Shown here one piece after another: positions 23,910-59,473 of a stretch of 61,148 bases of DNA. How positions within the stretch are numbered: the first letter of the stretch is position 1; each line of letters opens with the position of its first letter. The position numbers were made by a program, and so were the translations under genes. Source of the stretch: Parasporobacterium sp. (GTDB taxonomy: Bacteria; Bacillota; Clostridia; Lachnospirales; Lachnospiraceae); the NCBI GenBank assembly GCA_017510065.1, contig JAFWOB010000024.1, positions 1 through 61,148 of the forward strand, given 5' to 3'. A model generated the notes under the pieces. It did no database searches. It saw only the letters and a list, made by a program, of their open reading frames with translations, and was not told the DNA's origin.

Positions 23910-23947
23910 GTTTTTCTCCTTTATGCAGTCAAGTCCCTTTAAAATCC

Positions 23948-23968
23948 GGGGCCGGCTGAGCCGGCCCC
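23948..23968 (-). terminator. GC-rich hairpin between the two binding-protein genes
   Basis: A perfect stem GGGGCCGGCT / AGCCGGCCCC with a one-base loop follows the stop of solute-binding protein 3. The downstream minus-strand sequence is only mildly T-rich (GGATTTTAAAG), so it is more likely an mRNA-stabilising or partial terminator than a full stop. Confidence 0.6.
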
Positions 23969-23980
23969 CAAAAGTATTAC

Positions 23981-25528: not shown

Positions 25529-25543
25529 GTTTTTCTCCTCCTG

Positions 25544-26497: not shown

Positions 26498-27477
26498 CAC
26501 GAATCCTCCCCGATGCGGCTGCATCTTACGAAATGGCCCGGCTCGATCTCCACCGTCGGAGGCTCGCCTTCCTTACACCTGTCACAGTGTCTTTCACATC
26601 GGTCATAGAAGCTGCAGTACTGCGGAAGGTCCATCGGATCGCACATAAGACCGGGGATCGGTTTCAGCCGGTCCACTTCCTTATCCAGATCCGGGAGGGA
26701 TCCGAACAGCCCGATGGTATAAGGATGTGTCGGATGTTCGAACACCTGCTTCGTGGTTCCCATCTCAATGATCTCCCCTGCGTACATGACCGCGCAGTTA
26801 TCGCAGCTGTCTGCCACGACTCCGAAATCATGGGTGATCAGAAGAAGGGCTGTGCCGAACTTTTCCTTCAGTTCCCGGATCAGATGAAGGATCTGGGCCT
26901 GGATCGTAACATCCAGGGCAGTCGTCGGTTCATCGGCGATCAGGAGTTCCGGATTGCATGCCAGCGCAATGGCGATCACGACCCTCTGCTTCATCCCGCC
27001 GGAAAACTGATGCGGGAAATCTTTATAACGTTCCGGAGAGATTCCTACCAGTTCCAGCATTTCCGTAGCCTTCCTGGTTGCTTCCGCACGGGATACATCA
27101 TTATGAAGCCGGATCACTTCTGCGATCTGCTCCCCGACCCTTAACACAGGATTCAGCGAAGTCATCGGATCCTGAAAGATCATGCTGACCTCATCGCCCA
27201 GAACTTTGTGCTTTTTGCCCTTATTTTTTTCATCGTTCAGATCGACCCCGTTGATCGTGGCAGTTCCTTCAATGATATGGGCTGCCTGTTTGGGCAGCAG
27301 TCCCATGATGGAAAGGGCGATCGTCGTCTTGCCGGCTCCGGTCTCCCCTACAAGCCCTAGGCTTTCCCCTTTTGCAAGACTGAAGGAAACGCCGTTTACC
27401 GCTTCCACGATTCCTTCATCGGTCTCGTAATGGACCACCAGATCCTTGACTTCCAGGATGTTCTTTTTCTCTTCCAT
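26497..27477 (-). CDS. dppD: ABC importer ATPase, DppD/OppD type
   Basis: A 326-residue ATPase with Walker [10 protein letters not shown], an intact signature ([17 protein letters not shown]), Walker [13 protein letters not shown] and a C-terminal cysteine-rich segment [14 protein letters not shown], as in peptide-importer ATPases. It should form a heterodimer with the DppF-type partner, whose signature is altered, so one of the two ATP sites may be impaired. The gene is preceded by the permease genes and overlaps the next gene by one base. Confidence 0.94.
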
Positions 27478-27493
27478 ATATCTGCCTCCCTTG

Positions 27494-28399
27494 TTACTTC
27501 AGCCTCGGATCCAGTGCGTCACGCACACCGTCACCGAACAGGTTCAGGGCAAACACGGCGATCATGATCGTAACGCCCGGGAAGATCAGATACCATGGCG
27601 CTGCAGAGATATAACTCTTGGCCGCGGAAAGGATGGAGCCCCATTCTGCCGTCGGAGGAACAATACCCACACCCAGGTAACTCAAGGCAGAGACCACCAG
27701 GATATTGCCCGCCACGGAAAAGGTGGTGACAACGATGATCGGTCCCAGGGCATTTGGCAGGATATGTTTCAGCATCATCCGAACACTCCCTGCGCCGATC
27801 GCCCTGGAAGCGTCCATATAGTCGGCGCCTTTCACCGTATAGACCGCGCCTCTCGTGATCCTGGCAAACAGCGGCAGGCAAGAGATCGTGATCGCGATGA
27901 TCATATTGGCTACGCCCGTACCGATGGCGGAAAGAACCGCCATGGCAAACAGCATGGCCGGGATTGCCTGGAAGATATCCATGATCCTCATGATGATGTC
28001 TTCCACCAGGCCTCCGTAATAGGCTGCCACCAGACCCAGCCCTCCGCCGATGAGCAGGGAAACTGCAGAACAGATAAAGCCCACCGGGATCGAGATCCTG
28101 GAACCATAAAGAAGTCTGACAAAAATATCGCGTCCGAAGTCATCGGTTCCGAAGATATGCTCCCAGCTGGGAGATTTGAGGATCTGGCTGTAATCCTGGA
28201 CATCATAGCCGGAAGGAGCGATGACCGAAGCGAAAATGGCCAGCAGTATCAAAAGGACTACGACCACAAGCCCTACGATCGCCAGCTTGTTTTTCGTCAT
28301 CCGCATCCATGCTTCCTGGCCCGGCGTATACTGCCGGAAGGTTTTTCCTTTGTTTTTCTTATTGAACCGCTCAATGGCCGGTGTTACTCTTTTTGACAT
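27494..28399 (-). CDS. dppC: ABC importer permease, DppC type
   Basis: A 301-residue inner membrane permease of the DppC/OppC family. A 35-residue cytoplasmic N-terminal extension is followed by six predicted transmembrane segments; the family marks HIFGTDDFGRDIFVRLLYG and the EAA-type coupling loop DASRAIGAGSVRMMLKHILP are present. It partners with the DppB-type protein encoded 12 bases upstream. The C terminus reads FGDGVRDALDPRLK, standard for the family. Confidence 0.95.
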   Translation of the reverse strand: MSKRVTPAIERFNKKNKGKTFRQYTPGQEAWMRMTKNKLAIVGLVVVVLLILLAIFASVIAPSGYDVQDYSQILKSPSWEHIFGTDDFGRDIFVRLLYGSRISIPVGFICSAVSLLIGGGLGLVAAYYGGLVEDIIMRIMDIFQAIPAMLFAMAVLSAIGTGVANMIIAITISCLPLFARITRGAVYTVKGADYMDASRAIGAGSVRMMLKHILPNALGPIIVVTTFSVAGNILVVSALSYLGVGIVPPTAEWGSILSAAKSYISAAPWYLIFPGVTIMIAVFALNLFGDGVRDALDPRLK

Positions 28400-28411
28400 T
28401 TTCCCACCCCC

Positions 28412-29389
28412 TTAAGCAGACGGAACTTCGGCAGCTTTTTTACGTTTCGGAGCTTTTCTCCTTTCGTAGGCTGCCTTGGTCCTCGGATCTATGAACGCAT
28501 AGGTCAGGTCCACAATAAGATTCATAAGACTGAATGTAATGGATATGATCAATACTCCTCCCAGAACAGCAGGATAGTTTCTGTTGGAAAGCCCGGTCAC
28601 AAGATACTGTCCGAGACCGGGAAGGGAGAATACCGATTCGATCGCGATGGATCCGCCCAGCATGGCACCGAACTGGGTTCCTACCGTTGTAATGATAGGG
28701 ATCAGGGCATTTCTCAGGCCATGCTTCAGGATGATGACGTTTTCCTTCTGGCCTTTTGCCCTGGCGGTATTGATATAGTCCTGCCGGACCACATCCAGCA
28801 TACTGGATCTGGTGATCCTCACTACATTGGCCGATGAAGTCAGACCGCAGGTGACGATCGGCATGATCCAGCCCAGAGGACTGGTGAGGCCAAAGGACGG
28901 AAGCCAGTGCAGTCTCATTGCAAAGAATAAAATAAACAGAAGACCCAGCCAGAACTGGGGCATCGATACCGCAGCCAGAGACAGGACACGACAGATATAA
29001 TCTATGATCGTATTCTGTTTCACGGCAGAGATAATGCCCAGTGGGAGTCCTACCAGCAGGGCCACAAAGATTGAGCCGATCGCCAGTTTGAACGTTACCG
29101 GCCATCTGTTCAGCAGTTCTCCCATAACAGGCTGTTTTGTTGTATATGATGTTCCCAGGTCACCCTTCGTCACAAAATCCTTGATATAGTTGAAGAATCT
29201 TGTTAAGACCGGCTCATCGAGTCCCAGTTCGCTGCGGAGATTATCACGCTGTTCCTGTGACGCGCCCGCACCGAGCAGGCTGTCCACCGGATCGCCCGGG
29301 GTCATTTCCTGCAATACGAACACGATGATCATAACGCCGACAATGACCAGGATCATCTGAAGAAGTCTCTTAATGACATACCTTCCCAT
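28412..29389 (-). CDS. dppB: ABC importer permease, DppB type
   Basis: A 325-residue permease with an N-terminal transmembrane helix (MGRYVIKRLLQMILVIVGV), the conserved MTPGDPVD, and the coupling loop ARAKGQKENVIILKHGLRN. Six transmembrane segments are expected. It follows the flavodoxin-like gene after 21 bases, so that gene seems to head the operon. The C-terminal tail is Lys/Arg-rich (RRKAPKRKKAAE). Together with the DppC-type protein it forms the transmembrane channel. Confidence 0.95.
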   Translation of the reverse strand: MGRYVIKRLLQMILVIVGVMIIVFVLQEMTPGDPVDSLLGAGASQEQRDNLRSELGLDEPVLTRFFNYIKDFVTKGDLGTSYTTKQPVMGELLNRWPVTFKLAIGSIFVALLVGLPLGIISAVKQNTIIDYICRVLSLAAVSMPQFWLGLLFILFFAMRLHWLPSFGLTSPLGWIMPIVTCGLTSSANVVRITRSSMLDVVRQDYINTARAKGQKENVIILKHGLRNALIPIITTVGTQFGAMLGGSIAIESVFSLPGLGQYLVTGLSNRNYPAVLGGVLIISITFSLMNLIVDLTYAFIDPRTKAAYERRKAPKRKKAAEVPSA

Positions 29390-29410
29390 AATGTTTCTCC
29401 GATCGTTTTA

Positions 29411-30349
29411 CTATGCCCGTTCCGGCTTCACTAAAATGTCGTAGTCTTTGTATTTGTCAAAATGAAGTTCTTCTGAATGCGCTTTCAGGTATTCCCTGAA
29501 TTCGTCATGGCGTTTTCCGATATTGATGATATGCTGTCTTCTGTATTCCGGATCGTCCGCTGCCAGCTCATCAAAGAATTCCACGACGATCTTTCCGTCC
29601 CGTTCCACAAACTGTCCCGGTTTGCTGCAGGTAGCACAGTGAACGCCTGTCTCCGTATCGATACAGACCGCGTTGCCGTGGCAGTTCGGGCATACGAAGT
29701 TATCTCCGCCCAGCCATTCGATATCATCGAATTTCTTTCCGACCTGGGAAACCACGTTTTCCGCCAGTTTTGAAACCCGTTCCAGATAATCCGGATGTTC
29801 CAGGACCTGGCCCGGTGCCGGGCAGAAAGTCGCGGCAAACTGATCCACCAGTTTGCATTTCGGCGATTTCAGGAAATGGAACATAAAATCCAGAGCTGTC
29901 TGGACATGGGTCGACGGACCGCCGCCTACGATGATCGTTCCGGCCGGTCTGTCCTTGAACCATCTTTCATCGATATCCGCCCCCTTGAAATCCCTGGCGT
30001 ATCTCTTGAATTCACGGTCGAAAGACGGGCCGCATCTGTCACCGAGCATCCGGAACAGACCCGGTGCCGTATTATTGTATGCAGGGGCGCTGATGATCAG
30101 GGCATCGCTAGCCAGGAAATGCTCCCGGAAGAAATCCATGTCGTCGCCCTTCAGATGACAATAACCGTTATGGCCATTGATGCAGCTGATGATACAGCCG
30201 TTGCATCCGAGACAGGGTTTGATATAAAGGTCGTGAAGTCTTATCATTTCCACTTCAAAGCCCTTCTTCTCACACGTCATCAGAGCTTCCTTCAAAAGGA
30301 TCTCACTGTTGCCCATATCACGGCCGCAGCTGATTCCCAAAACTTTCAT
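29411..30349 (-). CDS. Flavodoxin-like FMN reductase with C-terminal zinc ribbon
   Basis: A 312-residue protein of the NADPH-dependent FMN reductase/flavodoxin-like family. The N-terminal KVLGISCGRDMGNSEILL is the FMN phosphate loop; it is followed by CLGCNGCIISC, four cysteines that could hold an iron-sulfur cluster as in iron-sulfur flavoproteins. Near the C terminus CPNCHGNAV and HCATCSKPG form a likely zinc ribbon. The ATG at 30349 has GGAGGTG six bases upstream. It heads the ABC importer operon, which suggests that it acts on the imported compound, perhaps by flavin-dependent reduction. Confidence 0.85.
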   Translation of the reverse strand: MKVLGISCGRDMGNSEILLKEALMTCEKKGFEVEMIRLHDLYIKPCLGCNGCIISCINGHNGYCHLKGDDMDFFREHFLASDALIISAPAYNNTAPGLFRMLGDRCGPSFDREFKRYARDFKGADIDERWFKDRPAGTIIVGGGPSTHVQTALDFMFHFLKSPKCKLVDQFAATFCPAPGQVLEHPDYLERVSKLAENVVSQVGKKFDDIEWLGGDNFVCPNCHGNAVCIDTETGVHCATCSKPGQFVERDGKIVVEFFDELAADDPEYRRQHIINIGKRHDEFREYLKAHSEELHFDKYKDYDILVKPERA

Positions 30350-30495
30350 AGCATACACCTCCCCCATAAAACTCTATATAATAATAACACTCAATGATTG
30401 AAGAATTTAATGCAAAAATGTCATCATTCAGTTAAAAATATACTATAAATCGAATAAATCATCCCCCTTTATTATCTATTTTAACGAAAATTTAT
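30350..30495. other. AT-rich intergenic region upstream of the flavodoxin-like gene
   Basis: A 146-base AT-rich gap between the flavoprotein gene (stop at 30496) and the flavodoxin-like gene. It must hold the operon promoter. TATTAT/TATATA hexamers lie near 30373-30383 but no convincing -35 pairs with them at 16-18 bases. A short dyad TCAATGATTGA lies at 30391-30401. No terminator hairpin for the upstream gene is visible. Confidence 0.4.
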
Positions 30496-31989
30496 TTACA
30501 ACCTGTTATGCGCTGTTTCTGCCAGCTTTCTCCCTGTAAGGTAGCCGAACGTCAGACAGCAGCCGTAGTTGTGCCCCGCGATCCTGTAATTATAGCAGTC
30601 GGCAAACATATCTCCCGCGATGGTCCCGACTCCGTACAGTCCCGGGATCGGATCATCCTTTTCATCGCAGATCTGCATGTCGACATTGGTCCGAGGGCCA
30701 CCCAGAACAGTGAGGAAATAGAAGTCGTGCAAGATCCCGGCATAAAAAGGACCCTCTTTGATGGTCTGCAGATATTTGGCTTTTTTGTGGAAATCCTCAT
30801 CAATGCCTTTTTCACACAGTTCATTATACCGTCTTACTTCCGCCAGACCTTTCTCCACCGGGATCCCGATCTTTTCAAACAGCTCTTCCAGGGTATCCGC
30901 TTTTACGATCCTGCCGGCTTTTATGAAATTTTCCCAATTGGCAAAGATCTGCTCCCTGGTCAGGGGTTTTGCGTCCCTCGTTCCGCCCATGGCATAAAAG
31001 TCCAGTTTATCAGCATAAGCCTGATCCCAGATGCCCCAGGCTTTCTGCTCCGGTTCTCTCAGGACTGTGATGGCAGTATAAGCGCCATTGCAATCTTCGT
31101 TGCAGTATCTCTCCCCCCGGGCATTCAGTCGGAGTCCTCTGTGGGAACCATTTGGCATATGGGATCCGATGCGGCTTCCCTGGATCATGACTGCATTGGG
31201 AAAGGTTTTCTGCCAGGCAGCACCGGCTTCCAGCGCCATCTTATGACCTTCTCCTCTGTACAAGCCTTTGGTGATCATTCCGGCGTCGTAATTGACTTCC
31301 CGATTGGTAAAATACGGCGCAAATGTCGGACAGTATTTCTGCATCATCTCCGGATCAGCAGAAAAATCACCCGTTGCGAGCACGACCGCTGTCCCCGCCT
31401 CAAACAACACATTCCTGCCCTCCGGATCTTCTGCCGTCACGCCTGTTACCCGGCGATCCCCTTGTTCTTCCCGAACTAGATGGCGGGCAATATGCTGATG
31501 AAACACTTCACCGCCGAGAGCCTTGAAGTGATCCTCCATGACCTGCAGGGCGTATTTGATCCCCGATCCTGCCAGCTTTGAACCTGGTACCATGAATCCG
31601 TGGGTTCCCACAGGCTGATTCGTGGGGCTTTCCGGATCATCCCGGTTGCTGATCTCCAGAACAACTTTGATCCCGGTACCTTCCAGATGGTCCATGATCC
31701 AGTTCATGGCTTCCTCACTCCGATTATAAAACCGATACCATTTTCTCTGGTCCACCTGATAGGACTGGGAAGCCAGCTCTTCCAGATAGAAGCGCTCTAC
31801 CTCCTGCCTCTCATAGCCCTGTTCCTGCATGAGCCTGCTGTAGGAGGCGTGAACAGCTCCTCCTCTTCCCACAGGTCCTTTGCTGGCGGTAACGATTATG
31901 ACTTTCAGTCCCTGTTCCGCTGCGGAAAGAGCCGTGCTGAGTCCTGCCAGACCTTCTCCCACTACCACAACATCTGCCTGATACTTCAT
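30496..31989 (-). CDS. FAD-dependent oxidoreductase, fumarate reductase/ketosteroid dehydrogenase type
   Basis: A 497-residue flavoprotein. The FAD motif is at the N terminus (ADVVVVGEGLAGLSTALSA). The C-terminal FAD-contact segment reads GLYGVGTIAGDMFADCYNY, as in flavocytochrome-type fumarate reductases and steroid delta-1-dehydrogenases. The KADTLEELFEKIGI segment near residue 385 is also typical of that group. No heme or covalent-FMN motif is visible. The ATG at 31989 has GAGG six bases upstream. It follows the BKACE gene after 15 bases in the same unit. It probably reduces or desaturates a carbon-carbon bond next to a carbonyl; the substrate is unknown. Confidence 0.88.
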   Translation of the reverse strand: MKYQADVVVVGEGLAGLSTALSAAEQGLKVIIVTASKGPVGRGGAVHASYSRLMQEQGYERQEVERFYLEELASQSYQVDQRKWYRFYNRSEEAMNWIMDHLEGTGIKVVLEISNRDDPESPTNQPVGTHGFMVPGSKLAGSGIKYALQVMEDHFKALGGEVFHQHIARHLVREEQGDRRVTGVTAEDPEGRNVLFEAGTAVVLATGDFSADPEMMQKYCPTFAPYFTNREVNYDAGMITKGLYRGEGHKMALEAGAAWQKTFPNAVMIQGSRIGSHMPNGSHRGLRLNARGERYCNEDCNGAYTAITVLREPEQKAWGIWDQAYADKLDFYAMGGTRDAKPLTREQIFANWENFIKAGRIVKADTLEELFEKIGIPVEKGLAEVRRYNELCEKGIDEDFHKKAKYLQTIKEGPFYAGILHDFYFLTVLGGPRTNVDMQICDEKDDPIPGLYGVGTIAGDMFADCYNYRIAGHNYGCCLTFGYLTGRKLAETAHNRL

Positions 31990-32004
31990 CGTGTTCCTCA
32001 TTTC

Positions 32005-32883
32005 CTATGACAGTTTCGGGATTCCCAGGATCTGCCTTGCTTCATCCGGAGATGCCGTTTCATATCCCAGTTCATGAATGATCCTGACCATCCGTTCCAC
32101 CATTTCCGCATTGCTCTTCAGAAGCCGTCCTGGCCCGTAATAAATGTTGTCTTCCATACCGACACGGGCATTTCCGCCTTTCAGGATCGTCATGACACAT
32201 CCCGGGACATGGTTTTTGGCACCGATGGAAATGGTACTGAAATTAACAAACCTGTCTTTAGGAAGTTTCCTGATCATGAAATCCAGATTCTCTTCCGAAA
32301 AGGAGATCGCCCCCTGGCTGATCCTGTCCATTCCCATGACAAAAGACAGAGATACCGGATCGTCCAGAACGCCGGCCGGATACAGTACGCGGAACACATC
32401 TTCCACCGAAGTGGGATCAAAGCATTCCAGTTCCGGTTTAATTCCGAGATCTTTCATCATTTTGGCATATTTGCAGAGGAAATCCCGAAACCATTCATAG
32501 ACAAAGGTCCGACCATCCCAACTGGTACTGATCAGGGAACAATCAAGAGAGCACATATCCGGCTTGACCAGATCTTTGTAGTACAGAAGCTTCATTCCGT
32601 CTTCCGCCACCGTTCCCGCCCTGTTGGCCGGAGCTGTGGAATACTGGGTCATGATATTGCATTTTGCCCGGATCCTGGATCCGATCTCGCTGTAAACAGC
32701 CGGATCATTGGTGGATAATCCATCCTTGTCCCTGGCATGGATATGCACGATGGCAGCGCCTGCATTGTAACAGTCATAGGCGGAAGCAGCGATCTCTTCC
32801 GGCGTCAGCGGAATATTGGGATTGGCTTCTTTCCCATGAAAATTGCCCGTCTGCGCAACGGTAATGATGATCTTTCTGGACAT
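32005..32883 (-). CDS. BKACE family beta-keto acid cleavage enzyme (3-keto-5-aminohexanoate cleavage enzyme-like)
   Basis: A 292-residue enzyme of the BKACE family (DUF849). Members use a zinc-bound beta-keto acid and acetyl-CoA to give acetoacetate and a shortened CoA ester. The zinc site of the characterised enzyme corresponds to IVHIHARD (His47, His49) and the glutamate in VGMEDN (Glu244), both present. The ATG at 32883 has AGGAGG upstream; the long in-frame extension to 32997 is non-conserved. No lysine-fermentation genes accompany it, so the substrate is probably another beta-keto acid. It is cotranscribed with the downstream flavoprotein. Confidence 0.92.
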   Translation of the reverse strand: MSRKIIITVAQTGNFHGKEANPNIPLTPEEIAASAYDCYNAGAAIVHIHARDKDGLSTNDPAVYSEIGSRIRAKCNIMTQYSTAPANRAGTVAEDGMKLLYYKDLVKPDMCSLDCSLISTSWDGRTFVYEWFRDFLCKYAKMMKDLGIKPELECFDPTSVEDVFRVLYPAGVLDDPVSLSFVMGMDRISQGAISFSEENLDFMIRKLPKDRFVNFSTISIGAKNHVPGCVMTILKGGNARVGMEDNIYYGPGRLLKSNAEMVERMVRIIHELGYETASPDEARQILGIPKLS

Positions 32884-32980
32884 GTTCCATCCTCCTTTTC
32901 TTTTTATCGTAACATGCCGGGATGGCATGCTCCAATAAAAAACTGAATATGATTCTGTTTTATTTATAACACAATAAGTA

Positions 32981-33009
32981 TTAATGTAGTACCGCATTTG
33001 TTTTATAAT
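32981..33009 (+). promoter_or_regulatory. Promoter candidate for MATE transporter 2
   Basis: A perfect TATAAT at 33004-33009 lies 52 bases before the start codon, with a weak -35 (TTAATG at 32981-32986) at 17 bases. On the other side of the divergent region, the inverted repeat CATGCC-N5-GGCATG at 32913-32929 lies just upstream of the BKACE gene and may be an operator. Confidence 0.45.
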
Positions 33010-34440: not shown

Positions 34441-34469
34441 CAGCCGCAATCATATGCGGCTGTTTTTTT
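34441..34469 (+). terminator. Rho-independent terminator after MATE transporter 2
   Basis: CAGCCGCA and TGCGGCTG pair around a six-base loop and are followed by seven T residues. It separates the transporter gene from the following operon. Confidence 0.9.
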
Positions 34470-34649: not shown

Positions 34650-36263
34650 ATGAAAAAAGCATTTACCCTAATCCTGGCACTTCTCATTATCCTGAGCTGT
34701 CTGGTGGCCGGTCCGATGGCCGCAGCTGCAGCTGACGCAGCTCCCGAAGAGGGGCAGGCACTCGTTGTGTCCGGCGAAGTTGCGCCGAACAAAGTCAAAT
34801 CTGATGAAACCCTGAATGTCGTTCTTCCCGAAGAACCGGCTACTCTTATTGGCAGCAAGCAGGCTGGTACCTATGCCCTTCCCATCACCAACCTTCTGCT
34901 CGATATGCCTTTCAAGTATAACCTGGAAACCGGAGAGATCGAGCCTTATCTCTTCACCGGCTATGAGTGGGTAGACGATGCGCACACAAAACTTAAATGT
35001 ACCATACGTCAAGGCGTTAAGGCGACCGATGGCAGTGAGTTTACCGCAAACGATGTTCTTTTCAGCTTCAATGAATATCATGATTTTGAGGGCGACTGGT
35101 TCACTCCTCTGGTCGATTTCGAGAACACCGAAGTTGTGGATGACTACACCATTATCATTGGCTGCGCCAGCGGCAATCCCACTTTTGCGAATGCTCTGAG
35201 CAACAGAGGCAACGTTTACATGATCGACGAGTCCTCCTATCTTGCCAGCGGCGGCAGGGACAATACCACCAATCCACAGTACGGCACAGGCAAATACAGA
35301 TTTGTCGAGTGGATCCCCGGCCAGTCTATCCTATTGGAACGCAATGAAGAGCATTGGGATACCGAGAATGTTCCCTACTATAAATATATCAAGTTTACAT
35401 TCGTTCCCGATGCTGCTACCCGTGTTATGAACATCATGAGCGGCAGCGCTGACGTTGCCCTTGCGATCAATATCGGTCAGGCTGCAGAGCTCGTCGGCAA
35501 CGACAAGTGTGCTGTCACTTTTGTAAGCACACAGGACTGCAACCGCTTCTTCATGTATGCCGGCGAGGGACATCCGACTGCCGACAAGAGAGTCCGTGAA
35601 GCCATCCGCCTCGCGCTGAACACCGAACTGCTCAATCAGGTCCATACCAGTGGAATCGCTCCTATTGAGCCGTTCTATGTCACTTCTGAATCCAAGTATT
35701 ACTATGATCCTACAGATGGTGCCGGCGTTGAATTTAACCCGGAAAAAGCCAAAGAGCTTCTGGCTGAAGCCGGATATGCAGATGGCCTTGTAATCAACGG
35801 TATCGCATTCCCGCAGAATGCTGCGATCATGACTGCAGCGCAGGCCATGCTGAAAGAAGTTGGTATTACCCTCGACTTCACCACCCCCGACGTTCCTACT
35901 TTCCTGGAAATGTCCAAGAGCGGCAACTTCGATCTGCTGTTTACGGAACTTGCCAACAGCTGTAAGTTCTTCCGTGATGCCAACGTTTTCACCGTTATCG
36001 AACCCGGCGCTGTAGCTCCCGGCAACCCCAACATTGATGATCCCGATTTCCTTACGACCGTGGTAACAGCATACAGCAGCCTTGATGAGGACGAAGCCGT
36101 TCAGGCTATTAAAGACATTGTAACGTATCTCTATGATGGCGCTTATATGATCGGTATGGGCCGTTCTCTGAACGCAGTCGCTCATAATCCCCAGCTTGAA
36201 GGCTTCTATAATGGCACCGGCACCAGCGTAGACCTTTCTCTCGTCAGACCTATCGGCGAATAA
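34650..36263 (+). CDS. ABC transporter solute-binding protein, family 5, copy 4
   Basis: A 537-residue DppA-type binding protein, first gene of the plus-strand operon. The N-terminal signal sequence MKKAFTLILALLIILSCLVAG is followed by an Ala-rich stretch; LSC could be a poor lipobox, but an AxA-type cleavage seems more likely. The mature part starts DETLNVVLPEEPATLIG and contains VREAIRLALNTELLNQV. It is clearly more distant from the other three binding proteins. AGGAGG precedes the ATG at 34650. It should feed the DppB-DppC pair that follows. Confidence 0.92.
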   Translation: MKKAFTLILALLIILSCLVAGPMAAAAADAAPEEGQALVVSGEVAPNKVKSDETLNVVLPEEPATLIGSKQAGTYALPITNLLLDMPFKYNLETGEIEPYLFTGYEWVDDAHTKLKCTIRQGVKATDGSEFTANDVLFSFNEYHDFEGDWFTPLVDFENTEVVDDYTIIIGCASGNPTFANALSNRGNVYMIDESSYLASGGRDNTTNPQYGTGKYRFVEWIPGQSILLERNEEHWDTENVPYYKYIKFTFVPDAATRVMNIMSGSADVALAINIGQAAELVGNDKCAVTFVSTQDCNRFFMYAGEGHPTADKRVREAIRLALNTELLNQVHTSGIAPIEPFYVTSESKYYYDPTDGAGVEFNPEKAKELLAEAGYADGLVINGIAFPQNAAIMTAAQAMLKEVGITLDFTTPDVPTFLEMSKSGNFDLLFTELANSCKFFRDANVFTVIEPGAVAPGNPNIDDPDFLTTVVTAYSSLDEDEAVQAIKDIVTYLYDGAYMIGMGRSLNAVAHNPQLEGFYNGTGTSVDLSLVRPIGE

Positions 36264-36283
36264 TACATGTCCTTTTAGCAAAA

Positions 36284-36318
36284 CGATGGGGGCACCGCAT
36301 CCTGTGGTACCCCCATCG
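36284..36318 (+). terminator. Strong hairpin between solute-binding protein 4 and dppB
   Basis: CGATGGGGGCACC pairs with GGTACCCCCATCG with a single mismatch around a nine-base loop. No T tract follows, so it is better seen as an mRNA-stabilising hairpin that raises binding-protein transcript levels over the downstream permease genes than as a true terminator. Confidence 0.65.
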
Positions 36319-36407
36319 CTTATAGGCTGGTGCCCTACACAAATGCATGCATTACAGGTTCCTGCCGGCCTGCTGCTAATCCTTTTTTGATCGGCGGAGG
36401 TGGTTAA

Positions 36408-37391
36408 ATGCTAAAGTATTTAACAAAAAGAATTTTATATCTTATTCCGATCCTGTTCGGCGTGATTCTGATCCTCTTCGTCCTGAACGAGATTTCCCCG
36501 GGTGATCCCGCACAGATGATTCTGGGTGTTGATGCAAAACAGGAAGATATCGATGCGCTTCGGGAAGAAATGGGATTGGACGATCCGTTTTTCACCCGTT
36601 TCTTCAGATATGTGGCACACTCTTTCACCGGAGACCTCGGCACCTCCTACCGCTCGGGAAAACCGGTGATCGACGAGCTCATGGTCCGATTCCCTGTCTC
36701 GCTGATTTTTGCGGTTGGTGCGGTTCTGTTGGGCGTTCTGATCGGCGTCCCATTGGGAATCCTGTCAGCTATCAAGCAATATACCTGGATTGACAGCGCG
36801 CTGATCGTATTTTCCATGGCCTTGATGGCGATTCCCGGCTTCTGTCTGGCGCTGTTCGGAATCCTGCTCTTTTCAGTCAAATGGGGGATCCTGCCGACGA
36901 GCGGCATTGAGACCTGGAAAGGTTATGTTCTTCCGATGGCTGTCATTACGCTGTCCGTTATGTCCACAAACATTCGTGTAACACGAACAACTATGCTGGA
37001 TGTAATGCGTCAGGATTATGTCAAAACGGCGAGAGCAAAGGGACAAAAAGAGCGTGTTGTTATTTTTAAGCACATGGTTCGCAACACGATGATCCCGCTT
37101 GTCTCCCAGATCGGTTATGATTTCGGCAACCAGCTCGGCGGCGCACTGATCATCGAAACGGTCTTCGGTGTTCCCGGCGTCGGAAAATATATTGCTGATG
37201 CCATCAATTCGAGAAACTATCCATCTGCACTAGGCGGCGTTTTTGTTCTGGCAGTTGTCTGTACCCTGATCAACCTGATTCTGGACCTCTTATATGTGTT
37301 TGTGGATCCACGCCTGAAAACGACTCTTATTCTGGATAATATTAAAAAAAGACAGAAAAAAGTAAGGAGGGTTGAGCATGGCGAAATATAA
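36408..37391 (+). CDS. dppB: ABC importer permease, DppB type, second operon
   Basis: A 327-residue permease with KYLTKRILYLIPILFGVIL at the start, EISPGDPAQM, and the coupling loop ARAKGQKERVVIFKHMVRN. Six transmembrane segments are expected. It follows the hairpin after the binding-protein gene. The 3' end overlaps the next permease gene by 14 bases, which suggests translational coupling. Confidence 0.95.
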   Translation: MLKYLTKRILYLIPILFGVILILFVLNEISPGDPAQMILGVDAKQEDIDALREEMGLDDPFFTRFFRYVAHSFTGDLGTSYRSGKPVIDELMVRFPVSLIFAVGAVLLGVLIGVPLGILSAIKQYTWIDSALIVFSMALMAIPGFCLALFGILLFSVKWGILPTSGIETWKGYVLPMAVITLSVMSTNIRVTRTTMLDVMRQDYVKTARAKGQKERVVIFKHMVRNTMIPLVSQIGYDFGNQLGGALIIETVFGVPGVGKYIADAINSRNYPSALGGVFVLAVVCTLINLILDLLYVFVDPRLKTTLILDNIKKRQKKVRRVEHGEI

Positions 37392-38289
37392 GACACCGGA
37401 AATGGAAAAAGCCGCACAGGTCAGAGCCAAGTACAGTGGAAAAAGCAGCATTGACTCTCCCGGACGACAAGCCTGGAAACGTTTGAAGCGCAATCCCACT
37501 GCTCTGGTCGGCATGTTCATTATTATAGTGGTCATCCTTGTGGCCATTTTTGCAGATGTTCTGGCTCCTTTTGATCCCAACCAGCCCGACTATATGGCTC
37601 TTAAAAAGGCACCGGATGCGGTCCACTGGTTTGGCACCGATTCGCTGGGCAGAGACATTCTCAGCCGCTGTATCTACGGCGCCAGATACTCCCTTGCGCT
37701 GTCACTCGCAACAACGATCACCTCTGCACTGACCGGCGGTCTGTTAGGTACCATCGCCGGATACCGGGGTGGGAAGACTGACAATGCTATCATGCGCGTC
37801 ATGGACGTATTTCAGGCTATTCCGATGGTGCTGATGGCCATGAGTATTACCGCTGTACTGGGTAACGGCATCCCGCAGCTTATTGTCGCCATAACCATCT
37901 CAAGTCTGTCAATCTGTGCACGTACCTTCCGTATGGCCATATTGACAGTCAGAAGCGGCGAGTATATCGAATCTTCCCGCGCTATTAATATCGGTACCTT
38001 TAAAATGATCCTGAGGCATCTTATTCCAAATGCCGTTGGTTTGCTTTCCATCCAGATGATCACCATTCTGGCTGCATCGATCGGACTCATTTCCAGCCTC
38101 AGCTACATAGGTATCGGTATTGCGCCGCCGACACCGGAATGGGGAAGTATCCTCAACCAGGGAAAAGATTTCCTCATGTCCTCCCCGCATATGGTAATTG
38201 CTCCTACATGTTGTATTTTGGTAGCAGTTCTTGGCTTCCAGCTGTTTGGTGTCGGTCTCCGCGATGCGCTTGACCCCAGAATGAAGTGA
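37378..38289 (+). CDS. dppC: ABC importer permease, DppC type, second operon
   Basis: A 303-residue permease with a polar N-terminal extension, then six predicted membrane segments, HWFGTDSLGRDILSRCIYG and the loop ESSRAINIGTFKMILRHLIP. I chose the ATG at 37378 with AAGGAGG seven bases upstream over a TTG at 37372. It ends FGVGLRDALDPRMK. It pairs with the overlapping DppB-type gene. Confidence 0.94.
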   Translation: MAKYKTPEMEKAAQVRAKYSGKSSIDSPGRQAWKRLKRNPTALVGMFIIIVVILVAIFADVLAPFDPNQPDYMALKKAPDAVHWFGTDSLGRDILSRCIYGARYSLALSLATTITSALTGGLLGTIAGYRGGKTDNAIMRVMDVFQAIPMVLMAMSITAVLGNGIPQLIVAITISSLSICARTFRMAILTVRSGEYIESSRAINIGTFKMILRHLIPNAVGLLSIQMITILAASIGLISSLSYIGIGIAPPTPEWGSILNQGKDFLMSSPHMVIAPTCCILVAVLGFQLFGVGLRDALDPRMK

Positions 38290-38299
38290 GGAACGTATT

Positions 38300-39304
38300 A
38301 TGGAAGAAAAGAAGCAAGCGCAGGATATTCTGCTTAAGATAAACAATTTCCGACTACACTATAATACCAGAGAAGAAGTGTATGAGGCCGTTAACGGTGT
38401 TTCTTTTAATCTGAAAAAAGGCACCACGCTGGGACTGGTCGGTGAGACCGGTGCGGGAAAGACCTCTATCGCTTTGGCAATCATGGGTCTGCTTCCCATT
38501 CCTCCTGCCCGCATTATTGAAGGCGAGATCCTGTTTAATGGAGAGGATCTTCTGAAAAAAGACGCGAAAGAGATGCGCAGGATCCGCGGCAACAGGATCA
38601 GTATGATCTTCCAGGATCCTATGACTGCACTTAACCCTGTATTACGCGTAGGCGATCAGATCATGGAAGTTATCAAACTGCATGACAAGATCTCCAAAGC
38701 AGAAGCAGAAGTTAAGGCACATGAAGTGCTTCAGATGGTTGGCATTGAGGATGACCGGTTTAACGATTATCCTCACCAATTCTCCGGTGGGATGAAACAG
38801 CGTGTAGTAATCGCTATGGCTCTTGTCTGCAGACCAGAACTGATCATAGCGGATGAGCCGACGACTGCACTGGATGTTACCATACAGGCGCAGGTACTCA
38901 GCATGATGAAATCCCTGCGGGATGAAATCAGAACTTCCATGCTTCTTATCACACATGATCTGGGCATTGTGGCAGAAAACTGTGATGAGTGCGCGATCAT
39001 TTATGCAGGCGAGATCATGGAGCGCGGTACGATCCGGGATATCTTCGGAAACCCGCTCCATCCATATACACTTGGGTTGTTTAACTCTATCCCCAGTCTG
39101 GACAAGGAAGTGGAGCGCCTTACTCCCATACCCGGTCTGGCAAGTGATCCTACAAACCTGCCTGAATACTGCAGCTTCTGCGACCGGTGTCCGATGCACA
39201 TCGAAAAATGCAGACAGGTGGACCCAGAAACGGTCGAAGTTTCTCCCGGCCATTTTGTGAAGTGTCATTTAGTCAGCGAAGGCAGCGCCTCCGCAGAAAG
39301 GTAA
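38300..39304 (+). CDS. dppD: ABC importer ATPase, DppD type, second operon
   Basis: A 334-residue ATPase with Walker [10 protein letters not shown], intact signature [17 protein letters not shown], Walker [13 protein letters not shown] and a C-terminal CSFCDRCPMHIEKC segment. It begins ten bases after the permease gene. It forms a heterodimer with the DppF-type ATPase that follows, whose signature is altered. Confidence 0.94.
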   Translation: MEEKKQAQDILLKINNFRLHYNTREEVYEAVNGVSFNLKKGTTLGLVGETGAGKTSIALAIMGLLPIPPARIIEGEILFNGEDLLKKDAKEMRRIRGNRISMIFQDPMTALNPVLRVGDQIMEVIKLHDKISKAEAEVKAHEVLQMVGIEDDRFNDYPHQFSGGMKQRVVIAMALVCRPELIIADEPTTALDVTIQAQVLSMMKSLRDEIRTSMLLITHDLGIVAENCDECAIIYAGEIMERGTIRDIFGNPLHPYTLGLFNSIPSLDKEVERLTPIPGLASDPTNLPEYCSFCDRCPMHIEKCRQVDPETVEVSPGHFVKCHLVSEGSASAER

Positions 39305-39314
39305 GGGGTTTACT

Positions 39315-40271
39315 ATGGCATTGATTGAAATAGAAAACCTGAAAAAATATTTCAACGTGGCCAAGGGCACACTTCACGCTGTAGACGACATCTCAATCAG
39401 CATTGATGCCGGCAAAACACTGGGTGTTGTCGGGGAATCCGGCTGTGGAAAATCAACACTGGGCAAAACAATCATGCGGTTGGAAGAGCCAACCTCCGGA
39501 AAAATCATTTACGATGGTGTGGATGTGACAGCGCTTCCCATGAAGGAGTTCAAACCTTACCGTCGTCAGATCCAGATGATATTTCAGGATCCGTTTGCCT
39601 CTCTGGATCCCCGGATGAGTGTTTCCCAGCTTATTGCCGAGCCCATCCGCTCTCTGACCGATATCAGGAACTCTTCTGAGATTGAAAAACGTGTCTATGA
39701 TCTGATGGATCTGGTCGGACTTGCAAGACGTCTTGCGAATGTATATCCTCACGAGCTTGACGGCGGACGAAGACAGCGTATCGGCATTGCCCGCGCACTC
39801 TCCTCTGAACCCCGGATGATCGTCTGTGATGAGCCGGTCTCTGCACTGGACTTTTCTATTCAGGCGCAGATCTTGAATCTTCTTCAGGATCTGCAGAAGG
39901 AACGGAATCTGACCTACATATTCATAACTCATGACCTTTCTGTTGTAAAACATATTTCTGACCAGATCGTCGTGATGTATCTGGGTCAGATCGTGGAAAA
40001 ATCCGGTACCAGGGATCTATTTGCCAACACACTGCATCCCTACACGCAAGCCCTTCTTTCCGCGATCCCCATACCCAGTCTCCAGCATGAGAAAAAACGT
40101 ATTGTCCTGCGAGGTGAACTGAGTTCACCCATCAATCCTAAGCCCGGCTGCCGCTTTGCACCGCGCTGCATCTATGCAACGGATAAATGCCGTGCGGAAA
40201 GCCCTGAACTGCGCGAATACAGCGACGGTCACTATGTTGCCTGCCATTACGCAGGAGATGCAATAAAATAA
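39315..40271 (+). CDS. dppF: ABC importer ATPase, DppF type, second operon, altered signature
   Basis: A 318-residue ATPase with Walker A GESGCGKST and Walker B MIVCDEPVSALD. Its signature is LDGGR (HELDGGRRQRIGIARAL) instead of LSGGQ, the same change as in the ATPase at 25544. The cysteine region GCRFAPRCIYATDKC is present near the C terminus. It ends 23 bases before GRE3, so the importer and GRE3 are one operon and the imported molecule is probably the GRE3 substrate or its precursor. Confidence 0.93.
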   Translation: MALIEIENLKKYFNVAKGTLHAVDDISISIDAGKTLGVVGESGCGKSTLGKTIMRLEEPTSGKIIYDGVDVTALPMKEFKPYRRQIQMIFQDPFASLDPRMSVSQLIAEPIRSLTDIRNSSEIEKRVYDLMDLVGLARRLANVYPHELDGGRRQRIGIARALSSEPRMIVCDEPVSALDFSIQAQILNLLQDLQKERNLTYIFITHDLSVVKHISDQIVVMYLGQIVEKSGTRDLFANTLHPYTQALLSAIPIPSLQHEKKRIVLRGELSSPINPKPGCRFAPRCIYATDKCRAESPELREYSDGHYVACHYAGDAIK

Positions 40272-40294
40272 AATACGAAAAGGAAGAAAATACA

Positions 40295-42742
40295 ATGATC
40301 GAATCATCAAAGGTAACCAATGATTTTGCGCAGATAGACTCTGTAAACTGTGTAACGGATAGAGTTGCAAGTCTTATAGAACTCCGTAAGAATGCGGTTG
40401 AACATATCTGCTGTGAACGCAGCCGTATCGTTACCGATTCCTGGAAAAGTACCTATGGACAGAATATTGATATCCGGCGGGCAAAGCTCTTCCGCCAGAT
40501 CATGCGGGAGAATCCCATTTCTATTTGGCCCGGTGAACTGATCGTAGGTTCCCAGTCCCAGTATGTTTTAGGTGCATCCCCTTATGTGGATTACAGTCCC
40601 GACAGTGCGATTGAAAACCTCAATACCATGGGACCTTCCGGTGGAAGTTCTGTTACTGCTGCCATGATAACGGAAGAAGAACGCCGCAGCATTCTTGAGG
40701 ACTGCGAGTTCTGGCACGGACATTCAACAGGCGACATCGTCAGGGAAGTCAGAGAGGCTAAATTTCCTTGGCTGCCAGACTGGATAGAGTCTGGTCTGGT
40801 TATGGGAATGAAGCTTGTCGCACCTCCGGGAGTTCGTACTGTTGATTATGGCAAAGTGATCCGTATCGGTCTTGAAGGGGTTATTGACGAAGCAAAAGAA
40901 GCACTCGACAATCTCCCGTATGAAACCGACAGCGCAAATGATTATCTCAGGGATTGTTTTCTGCAGGCTGTTATCATTGCATGCGAAGGCGCTATTGAAT
41001 ACGCCCAGCGCTATTCTGTCCTGGCCGCTGAGATGGCGGCGAAAGAAGCCGATCCTGTCCGCCGCGCAGAGTTGGAGGAGATCTCCCAGATCTGTGCTCA
41101 TGTACCTGCAAAACCTGCCCGTAGTTTCCGTGAAGCCGTTCAGAGTTTCTGGTTTATTCATCTTTGTCTGAATCTGGAAATGGCATTCCACGCAGAAACG
41201 CCGGGTCGTCTTGACCAATATCTCTATCCGATGTACCGCAAGGATGTTATGGTGGAACAGACGCTTTCCCGTCAGGATGCTGCAGAAATTGTTGCCTGCC
41301 TGTTTGTCAAGTTCAATCAGCTGACGTCCGTTAAGAGCAACTACGATAAAAAGAATATCCCTGGAACGCACCTTCAGAACACCACGATCTGCGGTGTTGA
41401 CAGGGATGGAAACGATGCATCCAATGAGTTGTCCTATCTGCTTCTTGAGACTCTCGCCCAGGTACAGTTTCCCCAGCCTCCGATCTACGTAAGGTACCAT
41501 AAGAATATTGACAGAAAAGTCTGGCTTAAAGCTCTTGAAGTGAATGTTCGTCGCGGTGACGGCAATCCCTCGATCCTGAGCGATGAGCCGAGAATTCCCA
41601 GCTTCGTCGATCATGGAATCACTCTTGAGGATGCAAGAGACTGGTGCTGCAGCGGCTGTGCCGGATCTATCACCTCAGCATCCATCCACGGCGGCTCCCT
41701 GGGTGTAATTGATATCAATACAGCAAAGATATTTGAATATGTTCTTAATGAAGGCAGGGAACCCAAAAACGGAAAACAGATCGGCCCGAAAACCGGTGAT
41801 CCGAGCAGCTTTACCTGCATTGAAGATTATGTCGAAGCTTTCAAAGCGCAGTTCGATGTACTGATCAAGATTCTTGTCCACATGAGTCATCTGACCGCAT
41901 TTGCTGATATAAACAGTTACCGGATCCCCTTCTGCTCCGCACTCTGCAACGACTGCATCAAGCTGGGCAAAGACGTTCGAAACGGCGGTCAGCGATATCA
42001 GCAGTTCCTCTTCCATGTAGCAGATCGTGGAATCCAGGATGTTGTTGATTCTCTCGCTGCAATCAAAAAGGTCGTCTTTGATGATAAGATTGCCACGATC
42101 GATGAGATCAAAGCAGCTCTCAAGGCGAATTTTGAGGGCTATGAAGAGCTTCGTGACAGGCTTCTCGCTGCACCGAAATACGGCAATGACGACGATTACG
42201 TCGACTGCTTCTACAGTGAGCTGGCCGAATGGTGCGGAAACCGTATCCGTCAGGAGAAGGATCCGTTCGGCTTCCCGCAGTGGGCAGGCAGAAGCGGTGC
42301 GAACACGCATCTGATGTTTGGCAAAGTAACAGGAGCACTTCCCGATGGCCGTAAAGCTGAAACGCCTCTTGCCGATGGATTCTGTTCTCCGGAGCAGGGA
42401 TGTGATATCCACGGACCTACCTGTGTTTTCAATTCCGCAGGGAAAGCAAATGTCGTTGCCAACTCCAACGCTGCACTTATGAACATGAAGTTTGAGCATA
42501 AACTGTTCGAGGACGGCAGGAATATCGATAAGCTGGCCGCGCTCCTTGAGAATTTCTTTAATAAAAACGGGTATCATGTCCAGATTAATTTCATTGACAA
42601 AGAAACACTTGAAAATGCACAGAAACGTCCGGAAGACTACTCAAATCTTATGGTTCGTGTCGCAGGCTACAGTGCGTTCTTTGTAGATCTGCCGACAAGG
42701 GTCCAGGATGACATTATAAGCAGAACCAGCCAGGATATCTGA
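40295..42742 (+). CDS. Glycyl radical enzyme of the PFL-like family, system 3 (motif GCAG)
   Basis: An 815-residue glycyl radical enzyme. The radical Gly is about residue 791 in MVRVAGYSAFFVDL. The thiyl Cys should be Cys455 in WCCSGCAGSIT, with another Cys pair at 451-452 just before. The eliminase Glu position is Gly457. WKSTYGQN and GELIVGSQSQY mark the N-terminal PFL region, and QFPQPPIYVRYH the mid-domain. The start has AAGGAAG upstream. It follows the importer ATPase gene in one operon and is followed by a hairpin and the activase. It is related to but clearly distinct from the other two GREs, and its reaction is unknown. Confidence 0.92.
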   Translation: MIESSKVTNDFAQIDSVNCVTDRVASLIELRKNAVEHICCERSRIVTDSWKSTYGQNIDIRRAKLFRQIMRENPISIWPGELIVGSQSQYVLGASPYVDYSPDSAIENLNTMGPSGGSSVTAAMITEEERRSILEDCEFWHGHSTGDIVREVREAKFPWLPDWIESGLVMGMKLVAPPGVRTVDYGKVIRIGLEGVIDEAKEALDNLPYETDSANDYLRDCFLQAVIIACEGAIEYAQRYSVLAAEMAAKEADPVRRAELEEISQICAHVPAKPARSFREAVQSFWFIHLCLNLEMAFHAETPGRLDQYLYPMYRKDVMVEQTLSRQDAAEIVACLFVKFNQLTSVKSNYDKKNIPGTHLQNTTICGVDRDGNDASNELSYLLLETLAQVQFPQPPIYVRYHKNIDRKVWLKALEVNVRRGDGNPSILSDEPRIPSFVDHGITLEDARDWCCSGCAGSITSASIHGGSLGVIDINTAKIFEYVLNEGREPKNGKQIGPKTGDPSSFTCIEDYVEAFKAQFDVLIKILVHMSHLTAFADINSYRIPFCSALCNDCIKLGKDVRNGGQRYQQFLFHVADRGIQDVVDSLAAIKKVVFDDKIATIDEIKAALKANFEGYEELRDRLLAAPKYGNDDDYVDCFYSELAEWCGNRIRQEKDPFGFPQWAGRSGANTHLMFGKVTGALPDGRKAETPLADGFCSPEQGCDIHGPTCVFNSAGKANVVANSNAALMNMKFEHKLFEDGRNIDKLAALLENFFNKNGYHVQINFIDKETLENAQKRPEDYSNLMVRVAGYSAFFVDLPTRVQDDIISRTSQDI

Positions 42743-42763
42743 TTCTGCTGTAATTCCAGATCT

Positions 42764-42804
42764 GATTCTGCCTGACTCCGCTTGCGGCGTCAGGCAGAAT
42801 TTTG
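42764..42804 (+). terminator. Terminator-like hairpin between GRE3 and its activase
   Basis: ATTCTGCCTGAC and GTCAGGCAGAAT form a long stem with an inner CCGC/GCGG pairing and are followed by TTTTG. It sits in the 112-base gap between GRE3 and its activase, just as a hairpin does in system 2, and should lower activase expression. Confidence 0.8.
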
Positions 42805-42854
42805 TAATATTTTACCCGGCTTTTATGTTAATGACAGGGAGGTGAAGCACTGAG

Positions 42855-43775
42855 ATGCCGGAAACACAGGGAACGATTTTTAATATACAGCGTTTCAGTA
42901 CCGACGACGGACCTGGGATCAGAACCACCGTTTTTGTGAAAGGCTGTCCGCTTTCATGCATCTGGTGCGCCAACCCGGAATCCCAAAGCAGCCTTCCACA
43001 GATCGTGAATCGCCCCTCCAAATGCCGTGGCTGCGGCAAATGTGCCGCCGTCTGTCCTGAACACGTCATTTCTCTTATTCCAACCGATAATAAACCTGAA
43101 ATAAGAATCGACCGTTCTCTTTGCAAAAACTGCTGCACATGCGTAAAAGCATGCTCAGCAGGCGCTATGCATCTGTACGGCGAGCATGTAACTGCAGATG
43201 AAGTATATAACACGGTGAAGCGGGATCTGGGGTATTATCAGCGCTCAGGCGGCGGAATTACGATCTCCGGCGGCGAGCCCATGATGCAGATTGATTTCGT
43301 CACGGCTCTTTATACCCTCTGCAAAAACGGAGGTATACATACCGCGCTGGATACTTGTGGTTATTTTCCAACAGAATATATAAGCAGAACCAGCGGACTG
43401 GTTGATCTCGTACTATTCGATTTGAAGATCATTGATCCCGATCTGCATAAACATTACACCGGGGTGGATAATCAACTTATCCATAGGAACCTGCGGGAGT
43501 TTCTGAAAACAGACGCCGAAATATTTATCCGGGTTCCATTGATCCCTGAGATTACGGATACCGAGGCCAACCTTACTGCAATCGCAAACGTCGTAAAGAG
43601 CTTTGAAAAGCCACTCCACGTGGATCTGCTGCCCTACCACAATTACGGTGAAAATAAGTTTAAGATGTTAGGAAAGCCCTATCTTCTCTCCGATGCTAAG
43701 CGGCAGAGCAAAGAAAAACTTGCCTCCTGTCTGGAAATATTTACCGCTGCCGGCCTTGACTGCCAGCTTCACTGA
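42855..43775 (+). CDS. Glycyl radical enzyme activating protein (radical SAM), system 3
   Basis: A 306-residue activase for GRE3. It has FNIQRFSTDDGPGIRTTVF, the cluster motif GCPLSCIWCA, and a ferredoxin insert with CRGCGKCAAVC and CKNCCTCVKAC. GGEPM and the C-terminal VPLIPEITD and DLLPYHNYGE segments match the family. GGAGGTG precedes the ATG at 42855. Last gene of the plus-strand operon. Confidence 0.94.
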   Translation: MPETQGTIFNIQRFSTDDGPGIRTTVFVKGCPLSCIWCANPESQSSLPQIVNRPSKCRGCGKCAAVCPEHVISLIPTDNKPEIRIDRSLCKNCCTCVKACSAGAMHLYGEHVTADEVYNTVKRDLGYYQRSGGGITISGGEPMMQIDFVTALYTLCKNGGIHTALDTCGYFPTEYISRTSGLVDLVLFDLKIIDPDLHKHYTGVDNQLIHRNLREFLKTDAEIFIRVPLIPEITDTEANLTAIANVVKSFEKPLHVDLLPYHNYGENKFKMLGKPYLLSDAKRQSKEKLASCLEIFTAAGLDCQLH

Positions 43776-54299: not shown

Positions 54300-54329
54300 A
54301 ATGGATTCCTCCTGATTCAAGCAAGTGAT

Positions 54330-54986: not shown

Positions 54987-54998
54987 GCTGTCCCCTCC

Positions 54999-56369: not shown

Positions 56370-56432
56370 GGTTTTTCTCTTTCTTAAATCACTGTTTTCG
56401 GAGCAGTCATGAAGCGCTGCCCCGGAAATCCT

Positions 56433-58270: not shown

Positions 58271-58296
58271 AGAGTGTTACCTCAGCTTTTTATACC

Positions 58297-58325
58297 GAAC
58301 GGGAGCCTGAAATAAGCTCCCGTTC
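58297..58325 (-). terminator. Hairpin between dctP and dctQ
   Basis: GAACGGGAGC and GCTCCCGTTC form a perfect ten-base-pair stem with a nine-base loop. No good T tract follows, so it probably protects the dctP transcript and reduces downstream expression. Confidence 0.7.
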
Positions 58326-58390
58326 ATGAAATTCAGATGGTTCTGCGCAAAATGGCGCAGGTTGACCTACAAATTGCCTTATTCAGTTGA

Positions 58391-59401: not shown

Positions 59402-59473
59402 AGTAACCTCCATAAATGAAATGTACGGACCCGGTTGGAAATGTTCTCCCCGGATCTCGTTACGATCCACTGA

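Follow-up and report, generated by a model that had tools for sequence, protein, structure and literature searches.

A candidate importer-coupled glycyl radical enzyme operon in Parasporobacterium sp.

Glycyl radical enzymes (GREs) are oxygen-sensitive radical enzymes; for many of their sequences no substrate is known, and clues to one usually come from genome context. Here we analyzed a seven-gene region, positions 34,650 to 43,775 on the plus strand of a 61,148-nucleotide stretch of DNA from Parasporobacterium sp. (contig JAFWOB010000024.1; the whole stretch is called the window below), in which the genes of an ATP-binding cassette (ABC) importer precede those of a GRE, named GRE3, and its activase. 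The described system closest to it in arrangement is that of the isethionate sulfite-lyase IslA/IseG, where GRE and activase genes also stand beside an importer. According to the cited sections, the isethionate genes adjoin a tripartite ATP-independent periplasmic (TRAP) or a major facilitator superfamily (MFS) transporter, and the type varies between strains (PMC6453916, PMC6386719). The TRAP binding protein next to IseG is described there as binding isethionate, the GRE substrate, at 0.5 μM (PMC6453916), and knockout of the GRE, activase or transporter genes as abolishing growth on isethionate (PMC6386719). In contrast, the importer of the window is of the ABC type, and the Cys-Ile-Glu given for IslA in the part of PMC8473560 concerned is Cys-Ala-Gly in GRE3.

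Other described systems resemble single parts of the locus. The Opp, Dpp, Nik and Gsi ABC importers likewise comprise an SBP_bac_5 protein, two permeases and two ATPases, and trans-4-hydroxy-L-proline dehydratase (HypD) shares the GRE fold and the activase type. No account of this gene neighbourhood was found in the open-access literature searched.

Gene order and proposed pathway

The open reading frames (ORFs) and their Pfam matches placed a family-5 solute-binding protein (SBP; here SBP_d), two permeases, two ATPases, GRE3 and the activase, all seven, on the plus strand between 34650 and 43775 (Table 1), as had been read from the letters in a first-pass annotation. The importer belonged to the family-5 class, with an SBP_bac_5 protein and OppBCDF-type subunits in one operon. 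GRE3 was a member of the GRE superfamily, with PF02901 and PF01228 matches above cut-off, a thiyl Cys455 within WCCSGCAGS and a glycyl loop, RVAGYSAFF, that contains Gly791. The activase belonged to the GRE-activating enzymes by its radical-SAM motif, CxxxCxxC at residue 31, and its TIGR02494 match (Table 1); it also carried two Cys clusters of the ferredoxin type. The short gaps noted in the first-pass annotation were found for most of the genes: the permease genes overlap and other gaps are 10-23 nt, but 144 nt separate the SBP_d gene from the first permease gene and 112 nt separate GRE3 from the activase gene, and both of these gaps hold hairpins. A purine-rich sequence resembling a ribosome-binding site was present before each ATG and was clearest for the SBP, the permeases and the activase.

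The reading that we prefer, with a probability of about 0.55, is an importer-coupled anaerobic catabolic operon in which the substrate of GRE3 is what the importer brings in, or something derived directly from it. The family-5 SBP would capture a small solute, and the OppBCDF-type ABC unit would import it. The activase would install the glycyl radical at Gly791 of GRE3, and the thiyl radical at Cys455 would then initiate the reaction of this solute or of its direct derivative. The number of promoter-like sites in the region was at the level of shuffled sequence (12 vs 12.1) and that of terminator-like sites was somewhat above it (14 vs 8.8), so that a single transcript for the operon is plausible.

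Motifs and relatives of GRE3

The GCAG motif ascribed to GRE3 in the first-pass annotation was confirmed (Cys455-Ala-Gly457). Cys-x-Glu is described as a conserved motif of GRE eliminases in the cited sections of PMC7077986 and PMC8473560, and GRE3 lacks it. Alignment with B12-independent glycerol dehydratase (1r8w), the best solved relative of GRE3, covered residues 21-812 at 493.9 bits. However, His164, Ser282, Glu435 and Asp447 of the dehydratase corresponded to Val180, Ala300, Gly457 and Leu469 of GRE3, and its His281 was kept as His299 in GRE3 but was Leu or Gln in three orthologs. His164, Ser282, Asp447 and His281 are active-site residues of glycerol dehydratase. The column of glycerol dehydratase His164 and HypD His160, which holds Val180 in GRE3, is followed by a conserved Arg/Lys at residue 181; this residue might be a sign of an acidic substrate, and we give it little weight.

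GRE3 scored below every NCBIfam equivalog cut-off among the matches listed. The scores, in bits against the cut-off, were 518/1100 for HypD, 508/1000 for HpsG, 467/1000 for HpfG, 458/1050 for CutC and 413/1100 for IAD, and these five identities were rejected on these scores. The match to subfamily TIGR01774 reached 569 bits (cut-off 678). Pyruvate formate-lyase has adjacent Cys-Cys at its thiyl site; this identity was also rejected, since GRE3 has Gly454-Cys455 there, and pyr_form_ly_1 gave 83.9/994 bits.

Across 84,980 species genomes, at least 587 relatives of GRE3 were detected, from which 80 loci were kept (loci are labelled L and genomes G below). In four of these the best segment exceeded 40% identity: L004 (65%), L005 (62%), L006 (43%) and L017 (41%, a partial GRE). 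Further searches, centred on the genomes of these loci, brought in G647 (L104, 63%), G585 and G549, and showed that G449 (L006) and G450 (L007) carry further copies. L006 and L007 come from metagenome-assembled genomes of Chloroflexi, and G585 and G549 surfaced as relatives of G449. No GRE3 ortholog was found in the window's own family (0/396 other sampled genomes at E <= 1e-135; one 36% match in G136), no SBP_d ortholog in 298 other genomes at E <= 1e-90, and no match among relatives of G447 (0/98 other genomes at E <= 1e-160). There was no close homolog on plasmids either: 46 records matched at E <= 1e-60, all below 60% identity, and the best of the 20 listed had 35%. The genomes G447 (L004), G448 (L005) and G450 (L007), of about 2.4, 2.0 and 6.5 Mb, were rich in GREs, with 13, 14 and 11 GRE3 matches at E <= 1e-60, respectively.

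In the trees, GRE3 grouped with L004 and L104 (and L005) with support of 100/100 or 100, and all four sequences have GCAG in the alignment. A 100/99 branch separated HypD, CutC, YbiW and PflD from the larger clade around this group, which, when IAD was added, comprised 12 rows at 100/100. In a quick tree with more rows the clade grew to 24 rows (SH-aLRT 99), here called the wide clade, and includes Chloroflexota enzymes, a second GRE of the window (GRE2), nine more G450 enzymes, L092 and one long-branch enzyme of L010 (L010_3545, whose placement is doubtful). The partial GRE of L017 fell outside the clade and keeps CVE. GRE2 appeared as sister of the GRE3 group in trees of few rows (97/95, 98/96 and 97/92), but the larger quick tree paired the GRE3 group with G449 enzymes (SH-aLRT 94), and no sister relationship is claimed. 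A GRE of the clade at L006 (387-2804, genome G449), beside a family-5 binding protein, has the thiyl site CCVL, with a Cys-Cys pair like that of pyruvate formate-lyase.

The Glu of Cys-x-Glu was absent in 18 of the 24 rows of the wide clade, and the reaction of GRE3 is therefore probably not a standard ketyl-forming 1,2-elimination. An ordinary eliminase reaction, with a different residue in the role of the Cys-x-Glu base and the importer coupled as in the isethionate system, is unlikely for GRE3. The closest solved relatives are indeed glycerol dehydratase and other eliminases, some members of the wide clade retain the Glu, and the cited part of PMC7077986 names Asp278 as the base of HypD and gives its Glu another role; but the same part reports that Glu436 of HypD is also essential, and in GRE3 the loss extends beyond Glu435 to the three further glycerol dehydratase residues listed above. 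The better claim to novelty lies with the enzyme, which represents an uncharacterised GRE branch mostly without the usual catalytic acid and outside HypD, CutC and YbiW.

The absence of Cys-x-Glu would also suit a fumarate-adding X-succinate synthase, and genes close by in convergent orientation, for a CoA-transferase, an acyl-CoA dehydrogenase and Etf (EtfB by eye), resemble a beta-oxidation set. By the residue numbers in the cited sections of PMC12358834, the Arg that contacts fumarate in BSS and MASS comes 15 residues downstream of the Cys. That sequence position is Gly470 in GRE3 and Met, Leu and Leu in L004, L104 and L005, respectively, and the identity was rejected on account of Gly470. 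No small-subunit gene was present between the seven operon genes, and MasD (305.8 bits, over part of GRE3 only) and TutD (297.4 bits) scored well under glycerol dehydratase. We consider an X-succinate synthase extremely improbable.

Binding-protein genes beside related GREs

The neighbours of related GREs were examined in 12 loci outside the window (7 genomes), which hold clade members with at least 38.9% identity to GRE3; the GRE2 group was left out of both this set and the controls. An ABC binding-protein gene lay within 265 bp of the GRE gene and on the same strand in 7/12 loci (Pfam-checked). The binding protein was of family 5 in L006, L087 and L089, all from the one Chloroflexota genome G449, and of the SBP_6/8/11 type in L105, L106, L090 and L007, with BPD_transp_1 permeases also near L105 and L106. 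Three of the 12 loci (L005, L088 and L107) had insufficient flank on at least one side. Nine further, more distant GREs of G450 gave a similar picture: beside seven of them, in the same orientation and 34-275 bp away, lay a gene for an SBP_1/6/8/11-type binding protein, two of these proteins only marginally above a Pfam cut-off, and the remaining two GREs, on a 5.8 kb contig, had none. Overall, 9/11 GREs of G450 stood beside such a binding protein (L124-L127, L090 and L007), some in tandem arrays.

In 44 control loci of other GREs, no family-5 or SBP_6/8 match was found within 3.5 kb with our own hidden Markov models (HMMs); L052 and L073 had DctP. When 146 of the 161 control neighbour ORFs were scanned with Pfam (the 15 left out were GRE paralogs and long ORFs), the first 25 of 163 families, a listing that does not reach families with one member or tied at two, included no SBP_bac family, and two Peripla_BP_4 and two NMT1 matches were present. 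Counted by informative genome, with the window included, the association was 5/7 against 0/44 control loci (Fisher p 9e-6). This test sets genomes as cases against loci as controls, and it is partly circular in that the SBP_6/8 HMM derives from loci of the very group under test. A conservative control count of 6/44, which assumes that the two Peripla_BP_4, two NMT1 and two DctP matches are binding proteins in different loci, gave p 0.003, and family 5 alone (2/7 genomes vs 0/44 loci) gave p 0.016. One control locus, L010, holds the long-branch GRE that the quick tree placed within the wide clade.

Besides that circularity, several observations weigh against an importer-coupled operon. The two closest relatives with flanks, the 63-65% orthologs of L004 and L104, had no ABC importer. 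At L004, neither the 4.6 kb before the GRE nor the 2.9 kb after the activase held a recognisable importer, and the far upstream end encoded a membrane-like protein of 257 aa that had no Pfam match; at L104, a MatC_N/CitMHS carrier gene lay 32 bp after the activase, with a divergent LysR gene. No binding protein was found at L092 of G447 (8 kb flanks) or L010, nor in the short flanks of L093 of G449 (35% identity). In the GRE2 group, an ABC binding protein was present within 3.5 kb in 0/9 loci, and a DctP gene of L011 was 1.9 kb off on the opposite strand. The wide clade as a whole is thus not importer-linked, and the transporter type varies between its branches. Glu is kept in six of the 24 wide-clade rows, L106 and five from G450. 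The draft genome has 21 family-5 matches, representing about 20 binding proteins, which makes a chance adjacency likelier. Beyond the activase, the plus strand has no catabolic gene, so there is no pathway frame for the substrate; the downstream neighbours, on the opposite strand, encode Etf alpha, an acyl-CoA dehydrogenase and a CoA-transferase (Pfam) and Etf beta (by eye).

From the gene order, the first-pass annotation had concluded that the imported compound is the GRE substrate; it had proposed a search for the set of family-5 SBP, dppBCDF, GRE and activase in other genomes, and had named a linkage unique to this genome, or a different neighbourhood elsewhere, as what would refute it. The linkage of a binding protein to the GRE is not unique, since it recurs in another phylum, and this partly supports that conclusion. 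However, the complete set was seen in the window only (0/12 loci; the three family-5 contigs are just 4.0-5.6 kb), and the neighbourhood does differ at L004, at L104 and in the GRE2 group. The mixed transporter types do not refute coupling, because in the isethionate system, by the cited sections, the GRE, IseG, is kept while the transporter swaps between TRAP and MFS (PMC6453916).

The importer and GRE3 may instead be merely parts of one nutrient regulon, with the importer carrying other cargo (e.g. peptides) and GRE3 acting on an internal metabolite. This would suit orthologs that work without this importer, a GRE2 group with no ABC binding protein, the many family-5 SBPs of the genome and the two operon gaps with hairpins, one of them terminator-like; but it would leave the repeated binding-protein genes beside related GREs of G449, G585, G549 and G450 unexplained, and we regard it as doubtful. 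Coupling of GRE and importer is plausible and recurs, but not everywhere in the wide clade. Tentatively, the GRE3 clade may carry out an undescribed type of GRE reaction, mostly without the Cys-x-Glu acid (e.g. decarboxylation or C-C or C-N cleavage of an imported organic acid), and may have repeatedly recruited unrelated importers (family-5 ABC, SBP_6/8 ABC and MatC), up to the arrays of GRE and binding-protein genes of G450.

Two groups of neighbouring genes were noted at these loci. At L107 (2130-5590), genes for a reductase of the old-yellow-enzyme type and for a protein of the AtuA family come after the clade GRE, a possible pathway clue. At L007 (546-8531) and L090, clade GREs lie near CoA-transferase-, acyl-CoA dehydrogenase-, enoyl-CoA hydratase-, thiolase- and DUF35-like genes, which resemble a beta-oxidation set (by eye; acyl-CoA dehydrogenase matches in L007).

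Importer cargo, expression signals and other loci

Importers of this class had been expected, in the first-pass annotation, to carry peptides, nickel or opines, and GRE3 to act on a peptide-like or cationic compound. The Opp/Dpp/Nik-type architecture of the importer agrees with this, but the binding protein does not. The peptide amine is bound by Asp419 in OppA and Asp408 in DppA. SBP_d has no Asp in this column, whose numbering was confirmed for both proteins, in a local alignment that is uncertain at only 18-20% identity to the peptide SBPs (18-22% to OppA, DppA, NikA and GsiB), and its score against the NikA family TIGR02294 was 89.6 bits (cut-off 393). A dicarboxylate-type carrier at an ortholog locus (L104) also speaks against such a compound. 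Peptide, nickel or opine cargo as a default was therefore rejected on the missing anchor Asp and the low NikA score, and a peptide-like or cationic substrate of GRE3 appears improbable. None of the five importer subunits reached an equivalog cut-off among the NCBIfam matches listed. The best solved relative of SBP_d by sequence was the agrocinopine-binding protein AccA (73.9 bits), which is too distant to name a ligand. From these residues and scores, the solute is unlikely to be a peptide or a nickel complex. Our best guess is that it would be a small organic acid; the thin basis of this guess is a further point against the preferred reading, since the sole hint toward acids among the neighbours is the MatC-type carrier of L104, to which Arg/Lys181 adds weakly.

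The stem-loop behind the upstream MATE gene (Table 1) is probably the end of the previous (MATE) transcript. The hairpin in the SBP-permease gap may perhaps be an mRNA stabiliser that gives an excess of the SBP, and that in the GRE3-activase gap is probably a leaky terminator. Both gap hairpins would thus tune expression, with the binding protein up and the activase down.

Table 1. Genes and hairpins of the GRE3 region, in window positions
Feature	Position	Strand	Basis
SBP_d, family-5 solute-binding protein, 537 aa, signal peptide-like N-terminus	34650..36263	+	PF00496 (SBP_bac_5), E 2.1e-58
Permease, OppB/DppB type	36408..37391	+	PF00528 (BPD_transp_1), PF19300
Permease, OppC/DppC type	37378..38289	+	PF00528, PF12911; ATG start at 37378
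ABC ATPase, OppD/DppD type	38300..39304	+	PF00005, PF08352 (oligo_HPY tail)
ABC ATPase, OppF/DppF type	39315..40271	+	PF00005, PF08352 (oligo_HPY tail)
GRE3, glycyl radical enzyme, 815 aa	40295..42742	+	PF02901 (PFL-like), E 2e-166; PF01228 (Gly_radical)
GRE activase, Radical_SAM, 306 aa, two extra 4Fe-4S motifs	42855..43775	+	TIGR02494, 349 bits (cut-off 174)
Stem-loop, then seven T, behind upstream MATE gene	34441..34469	+	Sequence; same stem in minus-strand terminator scan (34462-34441)
Hairpin in SBP-permease gap, no T run	36285..36317 (about)	+	Fold vs shuffles, z -3.55
Strong hairpin with U-rich tail, GRE3-activase gap	42764..42801 (about)	+	Fold vs shuffles, z -5.59; also in terminator scan

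Three GREs were encoded in the window and four in the draft genome. GRE2 (15863-18382, minus strand) has SGCLGYH in place of Cys-x-Glu. It heads a Bacillota group with L009, L011, L016 and L018 in the tree and, by motif, also with L012, L014, L019, L021 and L022; its neighbours encode an activase, a CoA-transferase and, at 13898-14854, a protein with no Pfam match. The GRE1 locus (3544-9636, minus strand; motif TGCLDG) has its own family-5 binding-protein gene 96 nt upstream of GRE1 and a URO-D-like protein and an activase downstream, and the nearest sampled relative of GRE1 is in L010. A second, paralogous importer operon of the Opp type (22368-32997, minus strand) shares 60-65% identity in the ATPases, 43-46% in the permeases and 28-32% in the SBPs with the one described here; it includes two tandem binding proteins, an FMN reductase, an FAD oxidoreductase and a beta-keto acid cleavage enzyme (BKACE). 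The region 52614-59470 (minus strand) holds a UGSC-family protein gene, cobalamin-protein-like genes and a TRAP transporter (the last by eye).

The operon gives a handle on GRE3, in that its soluble binding protein could be put through a ligand screen of the kind used for the isethionate system, and the ligand of the importer would be a direct route to the substrate of GRE3. As the branch is largely without the acid that defines the known eliminases, this substrate would test whether GRE chemistry extends further.

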